The notes under the pieces are model-generated. The model did not search any database and was not told where the DNA came from. It saw nothing but the letters and a program-made list of their open reading frames with translations. From NCBI RefSeq assembly GCF_018128225.1, contig NZ_CP072377.1, positions 1,612,001 through 1,676,000 of the forward strand: a stretch of DNA of 64,000 nt, written 5' to 3'. Below, piece by piece: positions 1,973-32,150 of this stretch (position 1 is the stretch's first letter; each line of letters begins with the position of its first letter). The position numbers were made by a program, and so were the translations under genes. This stretch comes from Leptotrichia sp. oral taxon 218. Its GTDB lineage: Bacteria; Fusobacteriota; Fusobacteriia; Fusobacteriales; Leptotrichiaceae.

Positions 1973-3076
1973 TTATGAAATTTTTTGTCCAATTACAACT
2001 CTCGCATTTCCATTCAAATCTTCAATAATTTCAACATTTTTAAATCCAAATTTCTCCATGATTTCTTTGACTTTGTCACCTTGCTTAAACCCAATTTCAA
2101 AAATCAAAAAACCATTTTCAGCCAAATAATCTTTAGCTTTACTAGAAATTTCCAAATAAAAATATAATCCATCATTTTCTGCAAAAAGTGCTTCACTCGG
2201 CTCATGTAAAGTATCATCAGACATAATTCCAATTTCACTCAAAGAAACATATGGTGGATTTGACACAATCATATCAAAACTCTTAAATTCAATATTTTCA
2301 AACAAATCCGATTTTATAAATTTTATGTTTTTTGAACCTAGTATTTTTTTATTTTTTTCAGATGTTTTTAATGCTTTTTCTGATATATCCACACCTAAAA
2401 CATAACTATTTTTAATTTCTAGTGCTATTGTTAATCCTATTATACCACTTCCACAGCCAATATCAAGTATTTTTTTTGAATTTTTATTTTCTTTTTCATT
2501 TTTTTTTAAAATTTCAATAGCTTTTTGAACCAAAATTTCAGTATCTTGGCGTGGAATTAACACACCTTTATCCACATAAAATTTTCTTCCATAAAATTCC
2601 TGTTCATTCAAAAGATATTGTATTGGAAAATTTTCTTTCCCAACTTTTGAAATAAATTTTCTTAATTTGTCTTTTTTTTCTTTAGATATTTTTTCATTGT
2701 ACTTTGTAAAAAGCATCATTCTTTCAATTCCCAAAACACTTGAAAATATAATTTCCGCTTTTAACTTAGCTTCACTCACATGATTTTTTTTCAAAAAATC
2801 AATACTTTTAACAAGTAAACTTTTTAAACTGTCATCATCTTTAACTTCAATCGAACTTGAAACATCTTTATTTTTTTTCAATAAATCCGTTAATTTTTCT
2901 TTTATTTCATTAATTTCATTTTGTGAAAGTTTCTTTTCAAAATTTGCATAAAGCATTATTCTTGGCATTTTTAATATTTCTGAAAAAATACTTTCAATTT
3001 TTAATCTAGCATCTTTTACATGTTTTTTTTCCAAATACTCAACAGATTTATTTAATATATCAAGTAATTTATTCAT
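1973..3076 (-). CDS. prmC: Peptide chain release factor N5-glutamine methyltransferase PrmC with duplicated N-terminal domain
   Basis: PrmC methylates the glutamine of the GGQ motif in release factors 1 and 2, using S-adenosylmethionine. The Rossmann methyltransferase domain has the SAM loop [11 protein letters not shown] and the signature NPPY near residue 273. The ATG at 3076 overlaps the end of prfA by eight bases, so translation is probably coupled; longer frames starting inside prfA are not needed. The product is about 367 residues, against about 280 for most PrmC proteins. The excess is a second copy of the N-terminal helical domain: residues about 4-60 and about 76-132 align ([20 protein letters not shown] with [20 protein letters not shown]). 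Confidence 0.93.
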
Positions 3077-4148
3077 TATCACCAACAGCTTTAAGCATTT
3101 CAGCCTGGTCATAAGCAATCAGTGCATCAATCATTTCATCCAAATCTCCGTCCAAAACTGCTTCAAGTCTATGCAAAGTCAATTTAATTCTATGATCTGT
3201 AACTCTTCCTTGTGGAAAGTTATAAGTTCTAATTTTTTCAGATCTATCTCCACTTCCCACTTGAGATCTTCTTTCATTTTCTACTTCTTTTCTCTGTTTT
3301 TCATATTCCATTTCATAAAGTTTTGAAGCTAACACTTTCATCGCAGCTTCTTTATTTTTAATTTGTGAACGCCCATCTTGGGAAGTAACTACTAATCCTG
3401 TTGGTAAATGTGTAATTCTAACCGCCGAATCTGTAGTATTTACATGTTGTCCACCTGCTCCACTTGATCTATAAGTATCAATTTTCAAATCACTCGGATT
3501 AATTTCAACTTCACTTACATCTTCAATTTCAGGAAGCACTGCAACTGTAATTGTTGAAGTATGAACTCTTCCAGAAGATTCAGTTGCAGGAACTCTTTGA
3601 ACTCTGTGAACTCCACTTTCAAATTTTAATCTTGAATAAGCCCCATGCCCTTTAATAAGAAAAGTCACTTCTTTTAATCCACCAACTCCAATTTCACTTT
3701 TATCAATAATTTCTGTTTTCCAACGATTTCTTTCAGCATATCTAGTAAACATTCTAAATATGTCATAAGCAAAAAGTGCTGCTTCATCTCCACCTGCACC
3801 TGCTCTAATTTCCATAATGACATTTTTATCATCATTAGGATCTTTAGGTAATAAAAGCACTTTTAATTCCTCTTCTAATACAGGAATTTTTTCTTCTATC
3901 AAATGAATTTCTTCTAACATCATTTCTTTCATTTCATGATCTTTTTCTATCTTCAAATCTTCTTTAAGATTTTCCATTTCTTCTTTTTGCTCTTTATAAT
4001 AAGTATATTTTTGAACTACTTCATCAATACTGTTCAAAGCTTTATTATATTCCATAATTTTTTTAGGATCACTAGCAACTTCAGGACTCATAAGCAATTC
4101 TGTAAGTTCCTTATGCTTTAAAACAACATCATCTAATTTTTGAAACAT
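3069..4148 (-). CDS. prfA: Peptide chain release factor 1
   Basis: RF1 reads UAA and UAG stop codons and triggers peptide release on the ribosome. The 359-residue length is normal. The codon-recognition tripeptide PAT is seen in [14 protein letters not shown], and the peptidyl-transfer motif GGQ in [15 protein letters not shown] near residue 230; the C-terminal [12 protein letters not shown] is also family-typical. The ATG at 4148 follows AGGAGTGAAAAATA. A promoter lies just upstream at 4214-4242. Its stop overlaps the start of prmC, whose product modifies this protein, a classic pairing. Confidence 0.97.
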
Positions 4149-4213
4149 ATTTATTTTTCACTCCTATTTTTTTCACTTTTCTTTGCTCAATTTCTTCTTC
4201 TATAACAACTTTT

Positions 4214-4242
4214 ATTATAACATATTTTCCTAATTTTTTCAA
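4214..4242 (-). promoter_or_regulatory. Sigma-70-type promoter for prfA-prmC
   Basis: On the minus strand TTGAAA (4237-4242), a 17-base spacer and TATAAT (4214-4219). It lies between the tRNA-Asn gene and prfA, so prfA is not dependent on rRNA operon read-through. Confidence 0.75.
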
Positions 4243-4250
4243 AAAAAAAA

Positions 4251-4327
4251 TGGCGTCCCCGGTTGGACTCGAACCAACGACCCTCTGATTAACAGTCAGA
4301 TGCTCTAACCAGCTGAGCTACGGAGAC
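4251..4327 (-). tRNA. tRNA-Asn (GTT)
   Basis: Cloverleaf with acceptor stem GTCTCCG/CGGGGAC, anticodon loop CTGTTAA (GTT) and encoded CCA. It lies 13 bases after the 5S gene and closes the rRNA operon. Confidence 0.97.
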
Positions 4328-4340
4328 GCAAAAGAAAAAG

Positions 4341-4453
4341 TTTGGCGACTACCTATTTTCCCTAGTATGGACTAAGTATCGTAGGCGTAAGCAGACTTAA
4401 CTTCCGGGTTCGAGATGTAACCGGATGTATCCCTGCTGCAATGGTCACCAAAC
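4341..4453 (-). rRNA. rrf: 5S ribosomal RNA
   Basis: About 113 nt. The minus strand starts GTTTGGTGACCATTGCAGC, contains the conserved CGAACCCGGAAGTTAAG core and ends GTAGTCGCCAAAC, whose ends pair (TTTGGTGAC with GTCGCCAAA). Ends are approximate by a few bases. Confidence 0.95.
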
Positions 4454-4472
4454 AAGTAATTAAATGTCAAAA

Positions 4473-4509
4473 GACAATGAGAAATAAATAGTAGGCAAGT
4501 AAAAGATTA
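4473..4509 (-). other. 3' arm of the 23S processing stem
   Basis: GACAATGAGAAATAAATAGT and the bases that follow pair with 7438-7470 (ATCTTTTACCTACTATTC and onward) with only small mismatches and a short bulge. This would place the precursor 23S ends in one long helix, the usual RNase III substrate. Confidence 0.75.
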
Positions 4510-7406
<2,897 letters not shown>

Positions 7407-11483: not shown

Positions 11484-12472
11484 TATTTAGTTGATTTTTC
11501 AATAATTGCTTCTCTTCTATAAGTATCAATTTTTACATTTGCTCCAATAGGAATTGTAATAAATGGTCTTACATGTCCTGATTTTAACCCTTTTATTATT
11601 GGAACATTAAGTTTTCCAAAATTGTCATAAAAAACTTCGTCTATACTCATATCTGTTGGATCAGCCTTCTTAGGATTTCTAAAATCTCCTATTATTATAC
11701 CTTTCAAATTTTTAAATTTTCCAGCTAATCTAAGCTGTTGTAACATTCTATCCACACGATAGCTATCTTCATTTACTTCTTCCAAAAATAAAATTTTTCC
11801 ATCTGTATTTATTTCATGGTCAGTTCCTAAAGTTGCGACAACCAGCGATAAATTTCCACCAGTAATTCTTCCACTTCCTCGTCCATTCTTCATAATTGTG
11901 TAACTATTATCAAAATCCAATAAATTATATGAAGAATTACTCATAAATGCTTTATCAAATGAATTTTCTGTCGTCACTGGAATCTCTTTTAAATTATCCG
12001 CCATTGGTCCGTGAAAAGTAACAAGTCCTGTTTTTTCGTTGATTGCAAGTAATAAAGTTGTGATGTCACTAAATCCTGAAATGATTTTAGGATTTTTTCT
12101 AATTACATCATAATTTAACTTATCAATAAATCTAATTGAACCGTAACCTCCTCTAATTGCAAAAATTGCATTTATTCTAGGATTTGCAAACATATCGTTT
12201 ATATCTTTTGCTCTTAATTCGTCACTTCCTCCAAATCCATACCATTTTGAATCAAATGATTTTCCGAAAACAACATTAAACCCTCTGTTTCGCAAATATT
12301 CAACTTCATACATCGCATTATCTCCCTTATAATTTGCCGGTGCCACTAAACCAATTGTATCACCTGGTTTTAATCCTTTCGGAATAATAATTTCATTATT
12401 TCCAACAGCAAATGCACACAAACTAAATAATAAATTTATTAAAAAAAATAACAGTTTATTTTTTACTTTCAA
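11483..12472 (-). CDS. Muramoyltetrapeptide LD-carboxypeptidase, S66 family, exported
   Basis: S66 enzymes remove the terminal D-alanine from muramoyl tetrapeptides during peptidoglycan recycling. The catalytic triad is visible: nucleophile serine in IRGGYGSIRF, glutamate in LFLEEVNED and histidine in KSGHVRPFITIPIG. The start is the TTG at 12472 after GGAGGGAAAATT, giving about 329 residues with a signal peptide (KVKNKLLFFLINLLFSLCAFA). Most LdcA enzymes are cytoplasmic, so export suggests periplasmic action. Longer in-frame starts run into the adjacent IStron end and are rejected. The leader is interrupted by the mobile element at 12528-14420; a promoter lies on its far side. Confidence 0.88.
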   Translation of the reverse strand: MKVKNKLLFFLINLLFSLCAFAVGNNEIIIPKGLKPGDTIGLVAPANYKGDNAMYEVEYLRNRGFNVVFGKSFDSKWYGFGGSDELRAKDINDMFANPRINAIFAIRGGYGSIRFIDKLNYDVIRKNPKIISGFSDITTLLLAINEKTGLVTFHGPMADNLKEIPVTTENSFDKAFMSNSSYNLLDFDNSYTIMKNGRGSGRITGGNLSLVVATLGTDHEINTDGKILFLEEVNEDSYRVDRMLQQLRLAGKFKNLKGIIIGDFRNPKKADPTDMSIDEVFYDNFGKLNVPIIKGLKSGHVRPFITIPIGANVKIDTYRREAIIEKSTK

Positions 12473-12530
12473 AATTTTCCCTCCGCTTATTAAATTTTTT
12501 ATAATATTTGTAAAACTCTCTACAAATCCT

Positions 12531-12560
12531 GAACCTCCCACGACTAAAGTCGCAGGGTTC
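12531..12560 (-). repeat. Right-end hairpin of the IStron
   Basis: Minus strand GAACC...GCGACTTTAGTCGT...GGTTC, an imperfect hairpin 48 bases after the tnpB stop. In IS200/IS605 elements this end also forms the 3' part of the TnpB guide RNA, and in IStrons the 3' splice site lies here. Confidence 0.75.
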
Positions 12561-12607
12561 TAAAATCTTTAAAAATATTCAAAAATTTTCTAAGAAGTTT
12601 GATAGCT

Positions 12608-13855
12608 TTACACTACCCTTATTCTTTTAGGTGTGTTCAGCTCACCTCTATTGTATAGGATACTTAAATCCACAACTTTACTTTTCCTTAATATGTTTAA
12701 TGCTCCATTACAATCTGCATTTATGAGTTTACCTATGCTTGTTTGATATAGTCCTCTTTTTATCCTTTTTCCACTGAATATATATTCTTGCAGATTTTCT
12801 TTATCATATATTGGAATTTCATCTCCATCAAAGAAACTTGCTTTTGATGTATAACTTTCTTCTTGTAGTTTGAATTCTATTCCATATAGTTTACATAGAT
12901 ATATTAATTTATCTCTTAATTTTCCATATGGTATGTTTACAAAGTTCTGATTATTTATACTTCCTATATTTGAATTTCTTTGAAAATCTTCGTTACATCC
13001 TAGAACTAGTTTTCCTATATCATTATTAAGACAATAATTTACAATTATTCTTGCTGCTTTTGAAAGATAATCTTCTATACGATTATTTCTCTTTCTAGTT
13101 ATTCTCTTTTGTCTTAATGTTGTGTGCTTAATCTTTTGCTTATCTTTAATGCTTTGCAATTTTGCATTTGTCTTGTTATAGTATTGATTAATTGACTTTA
13201 ATTTTCTACCATCTATTATGAATGAAGTTCCAGTATTTGTAACACAAGTACAAAGATTGTTTATACCTAAATCAATTCCTAGTACATTTTCTTTATTTAA
13301 TTCCCTTTGAACTTCTTCTACCTCATAAGTATATTGAATTTCAAAGTACCTAGAATGTTGTTTTGGTATTATTCTAATCTCTTTTATCTTCTTGCCTTTT
13401 AATACTGGTGGTAGCTTAATTTTAACTTCCTGATGAGTTTTCTTAAACGAATTTGAATAAGGAACTATCAGCATATCATCTTTTAATCTAACAAAACCTA
13501 TAACAAGAGTTGTAAAACCATCTTTATCAAGATATTTAGGTAATTTTATTTTTTTATTATCATATTGACCATTTTTAGCAAGTTTTAAAAGTCCAAAAAA
13601 TGATTTAAAACTTCCGTCTACTTCTTTTAGAATTTGTTGTGCCATATTAGAATTTAATTTTTTATAGTTCTCACTATTTTTAAGCATCTTATAGTTTTCA
13701 TTATAACTTAAATACTTTTTATTTTTAAAATAGTATTGTCTAACATTGTATATAGCCTGATTCTTTAAATTCTTAGCTATATGGCACAAATATTTTAAAT
13801 TTCTAAACTCCTTTTTACTAAGATGTTTTACCTGTTGTTTTAAAGTTAAATACAT
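12608..13855 (-). CDS. tnpB: TnpB RNA-guided nuclease of the IStron (zinc ribbon missing)
   Basis: TnpB proteins are omega-RNA-guided DNA endonucleases that help IS200/IS605 elements persist. The three RuvC acidic residues are present: D195 in GIDLGINNL, E289 in LGCNEDFQ and D381 in INADCNGALNI. Where canonical TnpB has a CxxC...CxxC zinc ribbon, this one reads EESYTSKASFFDGDEIP and then GKRIKRGLYQTSIGK, without cysteine pairs. Start is the ATG at 13855 after a perfect AAGGAGGTG; the GTG nine bases earlier is inside the spacing. About 415 residues, full length. The omega-RNA is expected to overlap the 3' end and extend to 12531. Confidence 0.92.
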   Translation of the reverse strand: MYLTLKQQVKHLSKKEFRNLKYLCHIAKNLKNQAIYNVRQYYFKNKKYLSYNENYKMLKNSENYKKLNSNMAQQILKEVDGSFKSFFGLLKLAKNGQYDNKKIKLPKYLDKDGFTTLVIGFVRLKDDMLIVPYSNSFKKTHQEVKIKLPPVLKGKKIKEIRIIPKQHSRYFEIQYTYEVEEVQRELNKENVLGIDLGINNLCTCVTNTGTSFIIDGRKLKSINQYYNKTNAKLQSIKDKQKIKHTTLRQKRITRKRNNRIEDYLSKAARIIVNYCLNNDIGKLVLGCNEDFQRNSNIGSINNQNFVNIPYGKLRDKLIYLCKLYGIEFKLQEESYTSKASFFDGDEIPIYDKENLQEYIFSGKRIKRGLYQTSIGKLINADCNGALNILRKSKVVDLSILYNRGELNTPKRIRVV

Positions 13856-13882
13856 AGATATCACCTCCTTTTCATCAGAGAT

Positions 13883-13888
13883 ATTATA
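13883..13888 (-). promoter_or_regulatory. Possible -10 element of the IStron tnpB
   Basis: Minus strand TATAAT, 28 bases before the ATG at 13855. No good -35 is seen at 16-18 bases, so this is tentative. Confidence 0.4.
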
Positions 13889-13954
13889 CTATATATCCTA
13901 CATTTTATCTATTAAAAAGTAATATTTTTTAAATATTTTTAAAGTTTTTAAAAC

Positions 13955-14377
13955 CCCGCAGCAGCGGGAAGCGTCGTTCACATAAGTACGCTACTACTTA
14001 TGCAGTTCTCTCATGAACTTCTTGTTATCTCTAACAAGCACAGACTATATCTTATCCATAGTGTATTTTGGCACCTTAGGCGAAACCACTTCCAATACCA
14101 ATCGCTTGTATTGTACTCCCCTCACGAGGGATAGTCGTTGAACTTTCCTTTTCAGGATTAGCTGCTGATTGTCTATTATCATAATGTTTAGAATTTAACC
14201 TTGCATCATCTAGTATATTTTTTCTGCTTTCGCCACCATCACACTTATACCATATATTATTACCTAGGTATTATGTTGTGGTCATACTAGCTTTAAGAGT
14301 TCCCAGCAGTTCAGTTTCTTGCACGGTTTTGCTCCGTGTCTACATACAAGTTTCCCTATATGCTTACTAAAATTTTC
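13955..14377 (-). ncRNA. Group I self-splicing intron core
   Basis: Read on the minus strand. The R element GTTCAACGACTA (14132-14143) and S element AAGATATAGTC (14043-14053) are classic; GACTAT pairs with ATAGTC as P7. CTGCTG (14304-14309) pairs with CAGCAG (14162-14167) as a P4-like helix. Between the P7 strands lie CCCTCGTGAGGGG and CAATAC...GTATTG, fitting P7.1/P7.2 of subgroup IA introns. Downstream are P9-type hairpins: CTTGTTA-GAGA-TAACAAG, AGTTC-ATGAGA-GAACT, and CCCGC-TGCT-GCGGG at 13955-13968. There is no open frame inside. Splice sites and P1 were not assigned. Confidence 0.82.
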
Positions 14378-14419
14378 GTACAATTCATCTCACGACTAAA
14401 GTCGCGAGTGTTCTTGTAC
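14378..14419 (-). repeat. Left-end structure of the IStron
   Basis: TTGTAC (14414-14419) and GTACAA (14378-14383) form an outer stem around the inner hairpin CTCGCGACTTTAGTCGTGAG (14389-14408). The inner hairpin repeats the right-end core. Confidence 0.7.
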
Positions 14420-14432
14420 TATTTAATAAAAA

Positions 14433-14461
14433 AGTATAACATAAAAAATAAATTATCACAA
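14433..14461 (-). promoter_or_regulatory. Promoter reading into the IStron and the LD-carboxypeptidase gene
   Basis: Minus strand TTGTGA (14456-14461), 17-base spacer, TATACT (14433-14438). The start would be near 14426, only a few bases before the left end of the IStron, so the carboxypeptidase message would contain the whole element. Confidence 0.6.
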
Positions 14462-31571: not shown

Positions 31572-32150
31572 TTACTTTATTTTCATCGGAATTCCTGAAA
31601 CTACAAAATACGCTTCATCAGCTTTTTCTGCAACAAACTGATTCATTTTTCCAGCAATTTCGCGAAAATATCTGCCAAGCGGATAAGCGGGAACAAGGCC
31701 CATTCCCACTTCATTTGACACAATTACAACATTTTCAAAATTTTTAAAAATTTCAAACAAATTTTGAACTTCCTTTTCCACATTTTTATCACATTTTTCC
31801 AATTGATTTTTTTCAGGTTTTTCCCAATCTATTTCTTCATTTTCAAAAATAATATTGCTTATCATATTCGTCAAACAATCTACAAGCATATTATTTTTTT
31901 TATTTTTTTTATTTTCATTCATTACTTCTTCCAAACTTTGTGAAAAATTTTTATAACTTTCAACCGTAATCCAATTATTTTTTCTTCTCGTTTTATGCAA
32001 TTCAACTTTTTTTTGCATTTCTTCATCAAAGACAACCGAAGTTGCAAGATACACATTTTTTTGCTTTCCATCATTCAAAGATAAAAGTAAATCTTCCGCA
32101 AATTTACTTTTCCCACTTTTTGCTCCACCTGTCACATAAATTATTGCCAT
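31572..32150 (-). CDS. cobU: Adenosylcobinamide kinase / adenosylcobinamide-phosphate guanylyltransferase
   Basis: CobU phosphorylates adenosylcobinamide and transfers GMP to it during assembly of the cobalamin lower ligand. P-loop GGAKSGKS at residues 8-15, NMLVDCLTNMISN and the end motif VVSNEVGMGLVPAYPLGRYF are all typical. 192 residues, a normal length. It follows cobJ by 32 bases in the same direction. Confidence 0.95.
   Translation of the reverse strand: MAIIYVTGGAKSGKSKFAEDLLLSLNDGKQKNVYLATSVVFDEEMQKKVELHKTRRKNNWITVESYKNFSQSLEEVMNENKKNKKNNMLVDCLTNMISNIIFENEEIDWEKPEKNQLEKCDKNVEKEVQNLFEIFKNFENVVIVSNEVGMGLVPAYPLGRYFREIAGKMNQFVAEKADEAYFVVSGIPMKIK

Follow-up and report, generated by a model that had tools for sequence, protein, structure and literature searches.

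A probable group A IStron beside truA in Leptotrichia sp. oral taxon 218, and its relatives at 33 further sites of the genome

The window analysed here is a stretch of 64,000 nucleotides from the genome of Leptotrichia sp. oral taxon 218 (contig NZ_CP072377.1, positions 1,612,001 to 1,676,000). Between truA and an S66 peptidase gene it holds, at 12529-14425 on the minus strand, one IStron of 1897 bp (5' end 14425, 3' end 12529), that is, a group I intron fused to an insertion sequence (IS). The element starts with TAAATAG and ends with GGTTCAG; its left flank ends in TTTAT, and the sequence to its right is unrelated. The 5' third carries no coding sequence, and a tnpB open reading frame (ORF) makes up most of the remainder. 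Thirteen truA loci were retrieved, and in the two relatives that were read (genomes G006 and G008) the same intergenic region was found to be free of the element, the uninterrupted site lacking both intron and tnpB. An original prediction made from the sequence alone had described a group I intron followed by tnpB, bounded by matching hairpin cores, and had suggested this comparison with element-free relatives. The composite element and its hairpins were recovered (Table 1), whereas the ends, given there as 14420 and 12528, had to be corrected.

Several characters place the element in group A of the IStrons. It is inserted after TTTAT, ends in TCAG and lacks a target duplication; subterminal palindromes of the IS200/IS605 type are present; the IS part begins after P9.2, following a GAACGA-type motif (GTGAACGAC, 13973-13981); and an ORF B of the IS200/IS605 type is present, ORF A being one that may be missing in this group. 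An identical layout was found at 34 sites of the genome, which is beyond chance, and the copies fall into two families (28 family-1 copies, sharing the layout of the window copy, and 6 family-2 copies). The element is thus in all probability (about 0.93) a group A IStron, in which a class IA2 group I intron is fused to a tnpB-only IS200/IS605 element. A rival reading takes intron and tnpB for two unrelated neighbouring insertions, and the two parts do look evolutionarily separable, given that TnpB proteins 49-67% identical to that of the window come without a convincing intron match at six of seven loci. Nevertheless, the layout is the same across the copies of the host genome, and because the element-free sites lack both parts this explanation was rejected for this genome, where it retains a negligible probability.

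The intron was recognised both by its motifs and by covariance models. The R element GTTCAACGACTA (14132-14143) and the S element AAGATATAGTC (14043-14053) were found on the minus strand, as were the predicted P4 and P7 pairings and the P9 hairpins, all of which are conserved. In a narrow scan, the Rfam model RF00028 (Intron_gpI), whose use had been proposed in advance, matched positions 14021-14367 over its full length (1-253) with 46.6 bits (E 8.1e-11). The T4 td intron, included as a positive control, scored 40.3, and sibling introns scored 72.5 (a family-2 copy) and 71.1 (the single copy of the related genome G001). With our own core model, R1, the window copy reached 182.4 bits, being itself one of the sequences used to construct the model. 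Altogether, 64 introns (63 distinct) were extracted. Alignment A1 comprised 44 introns from the host and related genomes, leaving out one cobK intron of locus L095 whose end had been misread; A2 comprised 24 of 40 distinct cores, with three sequences yielding no core; and A3 was made without L134 and L135. A secondary structure of 82 pairs was placed by hand on the 44-intron alignment, where 96.1% of the cells were paired and 29 of the 82 pairs showed two-sided change. Sliding the partners by 1-3 columns lowered pairing to 34-42%, and four of five covariation measures were reached in none of 500 shuffles. In P3, four of the six pairs change on both sides (GAAACU/GGUUUC versus CUACUC/GGGUAG), and this helix crosses the nearly invariant P7, which is a mark of the group I fold. 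The architecture is that of class IA2: a P3-P9 core with the P3/P7 pseudoknot is accompanied by P7.1, P7.2, P9.1 and P9.2, which are among the marks of this class in passages of Tourasse 2014 (PMC4227781). Among the copies in open frames, changes of the R element that may weaken the ribozyme were seen at L060 (~4136-4635) and L044 (~2553-3014), consisting of an inserted G and of a G for A in P7, respectively.

The presumed splice sites coincide with the ends of the mobile element. TTTAT precedes all 28 copies of family 1 (in one case followed by an extra T) and TTGAT the 6 family-2 copies, and all 34 copies end in TTCAG, with the 3'-terminal G of a group I intron. A motif served to locate the right ends, and exact ends were confirmed against relatives at three sites. 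When the strand was folded, the exon sequence UUUAU paired with the internal guide GUAAG and the left-end DNA hairpin came to lie inside the P1 loop, this P1 being the minimum-free-energy fold (z-score -5.4). The guide GUAAG pairs with the UUUAU target and GUCAG with UUGAU, and one P1 pair is thereby exchanged on both sides, from U-A to G-C. We read this as a joint change of DNA target and RNA splice site between the two families. TTGAT, ATTAT and TTTAT are the targets given for group A IStrons in a portion of Tourasse 2014 (PMC4227781).

Table 1. Positions of the IStron and its parts in the window, from upstream to downstream on the minus strand.
Feature	Position	Strand	Basis or remark
Promoter-like TTGTGA-17-TATACT	14433..14461	minus	consensus match; also in G006
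Target TTTAT, last 5 nucleotides of 5' exon, presumed transposon-associated motif	14426..14430	minus	before 28/28 family-1 copies
Whole IStron	12529..14425	minus	layout common to 28 family-1 copies; empty site in 2 related genomes
Ribozyme part, class IA2 architecture, ends GAACGAC	13973..14425	minus	Rfam RF00028, model R1, covariation
Left-end hairpin, in P1 loop	14389..14408	minus	core CTCGCGACTTTAGTCGTGAG
Internal guide GUAAG	14363..14367	minus	P1 with exon UUUAU, U-G at splice site
P2 hairpin	14343..14362	minus	alignment and covariation
P2.1 hairpin	14322..14338	minus	75.5% of cells paired; TTGAT rows misfit these columns
P3 5' strand	14313..14318	minus	partner 14082-14087; 4/6 pairs two-sided
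P4 5' strand	14304..14309	minus	partner 14162-14167
P5 5' strand	14284..14290	minus	partner 14210-14216; 4/7 pairs two-sided
P5 3' strand	14210..14216	minus	covariation
P4 3' strand	14162..14167	minus	covariation
P6 hairpin	14146..14157	minus	2/3 drawn pairs well kept
P7 5' strand	14131..14136	minus	partner 14043-14048; overlaps R element; crosses P3
P7.1 and P7.2 hairpins	14093..14130	minus	class IA2 mark
P3 3' strand	14082..14087	minus	covariation
P8	14056..14080	minus	alignment and covariation
P7 3' strand	14043..14048	minus	within S element
P9, P9.1 and P9.2 hairpins	13981..14038	minus	alignment and covariation
Promoter-like TAGATA-17-TATAAT ahead of tnpB	13883..13911	minus	consensus match only
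tnpB	12608..13864	minus	418 amino acids from GTG; likely start ATG 13855 (415 amino acids) after AAGGAGG
Conserved tail: right end, presumed guide-RNA scaffold	12529..12607	minus	3' splice site after G12529
Right-end hairpin GAACC...GGTTC	12531..12560	minus	GAACCCTGCGACTTTAGTCGTGGGAGGTTC; similar hairpin at right end of resident IS605
Flank, putative guide of window copy, assumed length	12513..12528	minus	inferred from IS200/IS605 guide RNAs

The 34 IStrons occupy 63,572 bases, or 2.9% of the genome. IStrons of this kind are already known, and it is the copy load of the host genome that is unusual; up to 24 per strain are given in the part of Tourasse 2014 (PMC4227781) on copy numbers. One family-1 copy is reduced to 1172 bp by an internal deletion, and short relics are also present. 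Elements of 265-320 bp at L034, L035, L036 and L038 keep both ends and little else, resembling miniature inverted-repeat transposable elements. In family 1, tnpB is open throughout in 22 copies, and in family 2 one long frame (369) is found in three of the six. The gene is under selection, the ratio of nonsynonymous to synonymous change (dN/dS) being 0.19 over 190 pairs of 20 equal-length family-1 genes, which are 20 of the 22 open copies.

The window TnpB matched OrfB_IS605 (1.8e-30) and Cas12f1-like_TNB (2.4e-8) in Pfam, and the NCBIfam model guided_TnpB with 207.9 bits (cut-off 100). The original prediction of a full tnpB with intact RuvC residues holds for the open ORF and for two aspartates, D198 and D384, which are invariant in nine TnpBs (the window protein and eight relatives 50-95% identical). 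It does not hold for the glutamate, since the canonical RuvC-II place varies among these nine proteins. E335 and E336, in the motif EESYTSK, are invariant in all nine, and one or the other may replace the canonical residue. A glutamate three residues past the canonical place is a second candidate because it is invariant in family 1 (24/24), although not in wider relatives. TnpBs and Fanzors with a glutamate relocated near the zinc finger are described in a section of PMC10711439. The C-terminal zinc finger is frequent but not universal, and no CxxC pair was seen by eye in the window TnpB; a search of solved structures by sequence gave no match at E 0.01.

Eighteen of the 34 copies are situated in frames open on both sides, and all 18 are in sense, for which the chance is 3.4e-4 given gene direction and site frequencies. 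The open-frame criterion (at least 37 open codons on each side, in compatible phase) was set after the table had been seen, and 17 of 34 copies pass at 40 codons. Both open-frame copies that run against replication are also in sense. Among intron-less controls, one of eight was found in an open frame in sense, compared with 18 of 34 IStrons (p 0.044). Phase 1 was represented by one of 12 open-frame family-1 copies versus 174 of 804 TTTAT sites, a difference that is not significant by a hand estimate. The sole phase-1 case of the 18 is the copy at L046 (4117-4576; genome 1788871) in a yggS-like gene, which shows an extra T at its 5' junction, belonging either to the element or to the exon; on a hand reading, this T puts an early stop in frame. 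Pfam was run on 30 of the 36 gene halves, four of which had no family match. The two halves carried the same domains in the genes for mannose-6-phosphate isomerase, HIGH_NTase1, two EamA transporters, RecJ, NTP_transferase/ManC, topoisomerase, DprA and DUF2207.

One of these genes is topA. The only two Topoisom_bac matches of the genome are the halves of one topA, split by a family-2 copy with a broken tnpB (L022 ~2456-2904; genome 1103699, minus strand); the dprA gene upstream also carries an IStron. In the 12 other genomes of the genus the topA frame measures 786-820 codons, and the matched stretch is stop-free in 11 and contains one TAA in G012. The junction is continuous and in frame in all 12, with TTGAT in 11 and TTAAT in one. 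As topoisomerase I is essential in most bacteria studied, splicing of the topA copy very likely works. Likewise, recJ is split by a family-1 copy; all 12 relatives have the gene uninterrupted, with a junction that reads TTTAT^GAAAAG or nearly so (TTTTT before the junction in one, GAAGAG after it in another). These data bear on the alternative that the ribozyme has decayed and that a plain tnpB-only IS breaks genes whose flanking frames are too recent to have decayed. Such decay would be compatible with some core changes (the copy at 31829 has a G inserted in its R element, and the copy at 125057 a G in place of A in P7), and splicing is read here from sequence. Nevertheless, the two-sided covariation, the interruption of the genome's sole gene for a type IA topoisomerase, the Rfam score of 72.5 for the ribozyme of the topA copy despite its broken tnpB, and the sense orientation of all 18 open-frame copies make decay very improbable.

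The region downstream of tnpB is the presumed scaffold of a guide RNA. Diversity of this tail (82 bases including the stop codon, in 21 of the 22 open copies, chosen by length) was 0.041 versus 0.172 at synonymous sites, about four times lower, and positions 12529-12660 fold with a z-score of -4.3. The following mechanism can be proposed. As DNA, the tnpB-only IS200/IS605 element sits directly behind TTTAT with no duplication of the target, and TnpA would be supplied in trans, perhaps from an IS605 that lacks an intron but has similar ends. As RNA, the element would act over its full length as a class IA2 group I intron whose guide GUAAG pairs with exon UUUAU, and splicing would join the flanks at the element ends, rendering sense insertions within genes harmless. 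Together with a guide RNA derived from the 3' end, TnpB would cleave the empty TTTAT site and thereby favour retention of the element. Since splicing removes the guide, the two uses of any one transcript would be mutually exclusive.

With regard to mobility, no TnpA was found inside any of the 34 IStrons, and the four Y1 matches of the genome all lie outside them. These four transposases belong to two IS605 types. The first is an intron-less IS605 with TnpA, present at 461.8 kb (L062) and 1993.6 kb (L176), that follows TTTAT and has IStron-like ends. Its left end resembles family 1, with a hairpin close to those of the copies at 449178 and 31829; the hairpin shares the stem with the window copy, and its other half differs, as it does in two of the 28 copies. 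Its last 33 bases are those of one family-2 copy and are one base off another. The L176 copy itself lies in sense within an open frame (216/242 codons). TnpA proteins of the second type (38-41% identical, 134-138 amino acids) were found in all 8 intron-bearing genomes and in none of the 5 intron-free ones (p 0.0008), the line at 38% identity having been drawn after the list was seen. The ends of this second type differ, and shared descent may explain its distribution. In a passage of Tourasse 2014 (PMC4227781), mobilisation in trans was deemed unlikely in view of genomes whose truncated copies are not accompanied by any ORF A-bearing IStron; a donor lacking an intron would answer this objection.

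Several observations weigh against the proposed group A IStron with self-splicing, guide RNA and movement in trans. The window copy itself is not inside a gene. Its 46.6 bits fall below the RF00028 gathering score of 50, which is a database threshold and not a biological feature, and wide Rfam scans listed no intron at this position. From those scans it was first read that an intron was absent; this was dropped after the narrow-scan matches and the T4 td control, the negatives being attributed to the tool's filters, which are laxer for short input. The fifth covariation measure, counting further pair types, gave 57 against 58.7 in shuffles (447/500), and P2.1 and P6 are the weakest helices, with 75.5% and 73.5% of cells paired, respectively. 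Part of the sense bias comes from the direction of replication (origin set at dnaA, terminus assumed opposite), because 31 of the 34 copies are co-directional with it, as are 151 of 186 other ORFs; and the contrast with the intron-less controls is weak, one of them also being in an open frame in sense. A reduced synonymous rate would be expected at the 3' end of tnpB if the predicted guide RNA overlapped it, but the last 40 codons gave 0.148 versus 0.172, with 38% of windows as low, and no sign of such an overlap was found. Finally, the TnpA of the TTTAT IS605 (93-100% identical) occurs in only two of the eight intron-bearing genomes of the genus, for which reason this element was rejected as a mobiliser across the genus.

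Whether the window copy splices is a separate matter. The promoter-like site TTGTGA-17-TATACT ends at 14433, seven bases before the element, which starts at 14425. A transcript from this site would begin with about 0-2 exon bases, P1 could not form, and the copy would act as a leader carrying tnpB and a guide RNA ahead of the peptidase gene. We regard this as a real possibility, somewhat short of even odds. G006 has the same promoter-like site and leader without the element. On the other side, the start of transcription is deduced, transcripts from further upstream would supply a full exon, and this AT-rich region abounds in promoter-like matches (27 observed versus 13.8 expected). If the promoter is real, normal splicing of the window copy is doubtful because its 5' exon would be nearly absent, and one transcript would cover both tnpB and the peptidase gene. 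Upstream, the ORF of the peptidase extends without a stop into the right end of the IStron (GTG at 12541), its likely start being TTG at 12472 after GGAGGG.

For the genome as a whole, a broader interpretation can be put forward tentatively, with slightly less than an even chance of being right. The 34 IStrons may have turned into a splicing burden that is now necessary to the host: 18 or more protein genes, topA among them, would work only through self-splicing. The elements would be non-autonomous and moved in trans by a resident IS605 without intron, whose target is the same and whose ends are similar, and a change of target would be carried by a matching change of the guide, so that DNA targeting and RNA splicing would evolve as one unit. 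IStrons offer a setting in which to study the conflict between harmless splicing and guide-RNA-driven persistence, and this genome provides 34 natural copies spread over two target classes, with 18 situated in open frames and one inside a probably essential gene. As intact and broken tnpB genes occur beside the same kind of ribozyme, host selection for splicing and element selection for TnpB become testable. The genome also bears on a question left by Tourasse 2014, namely how IStrons without ORF A move.

Of 98 genomes of the phylum, 12 gave matches to model R1, as did 8 of the 13 in the genus, the same 8 of 13 being recovered by DNA search. The phylum search covered 98 of 300 requested genomes, with stricter filters and at most 31 candidates per genome, so that its negatives are not firm. 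Weaker matches in fusobacterial genomes (35-46 bits; G009:C4:263765-263938, G090:C1:4157760-4157901, G088:C62:4209-4362 and G042:C31:12625-12782) are possibly other group I introns. TnpB relatives 49-67% identical were found in a Selenomonadaceae metagenome-assembled genome (MAG), Pseudalkalibacillus, a Mollicutes MAG, a Synergistaceae MAG (two loci) and two viral contigs. In the Selenomonadaceae MAG an intron (L131 2699-2845, 116 bits) lies upstream of a TnpB that shares 63% identity with that of the window. At the other six loci the best intron-model matches were at most 19 bits and were taken as chance. The same TnpB lineage thus seems to exist with and without an intron. A gene in three related genomes carries two ORF-less group I introns after TTGAT (L094 2317-3785, L095 2485-4730, L096 1989-3470), and at L095 a family-1 IStron forms a third intron in the last exon, so that a single bacterial gene holds three introns. 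At L094 the middle exon matched precorrin-6A reductase (cobK) with 87.1 bits, as a fragment scoring below the cut-off, and the L095 gene was named by likeness.

Literature searches turned up no account of Leptotrichia genomes with a large IStron load, LbISt1 being the sole record found. A study by Zedaveinyte (Science, 2024), which reportedly deals with the balance between splicing and guide RNA, may list more IStrons. G001 has a single intron copy, inserted after TTGAT and alignable with family 2, that is probably LbISt1. The original prediction knew of no IStron in this lineage, but FnISt1, FnISt2 and LbISt1 are listed in Tourasse 2014 (PMC4227781), and five copies were reported in F. nucleatum polymorphum in 2007 (in a section of PMC1924603). 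As described in parts of PMC4227781, LbISt1 of Leptotrichia buccalis resembles the window element in being a group A IStron with a class IA2 intron and tnpB without a complete tnpA; it differs in its 1760 bp and one copy per strain, whereas the window element has the TTTAT target, another guide and 28 copies. The window TnpB also lies on another branch than that of family 2, to which LbISt1 probably belongs. FnISt1 and FnISt2 of Fusobacterium nucleatum are likewise fusobacterial group A IStrons, with two families in one strain, but they have 1-6 copies per strain and other sizes according to the portions of PMC4227781 on them, the comparison being by description and not by sequence. CdISt1 of Clostridioides difficile, whose splicing is reported there as confirmed, shares group A membership, a T-rich pentanucleotide target, the TCAG end and an IS located after P9.2, and differs in having 9-24 copies per strain, some with ORF A (PMC4227781, in part). 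ISDra2/IS8301 and other IS200/IS605 elements share with the window element the T-rich pentanucleotide target, subterminal hairpins, the lack of target duplication and TnpB, but they have no intron and carry tnpA. In their TnpBs, the RuvC-II glutamate is at the usual place.

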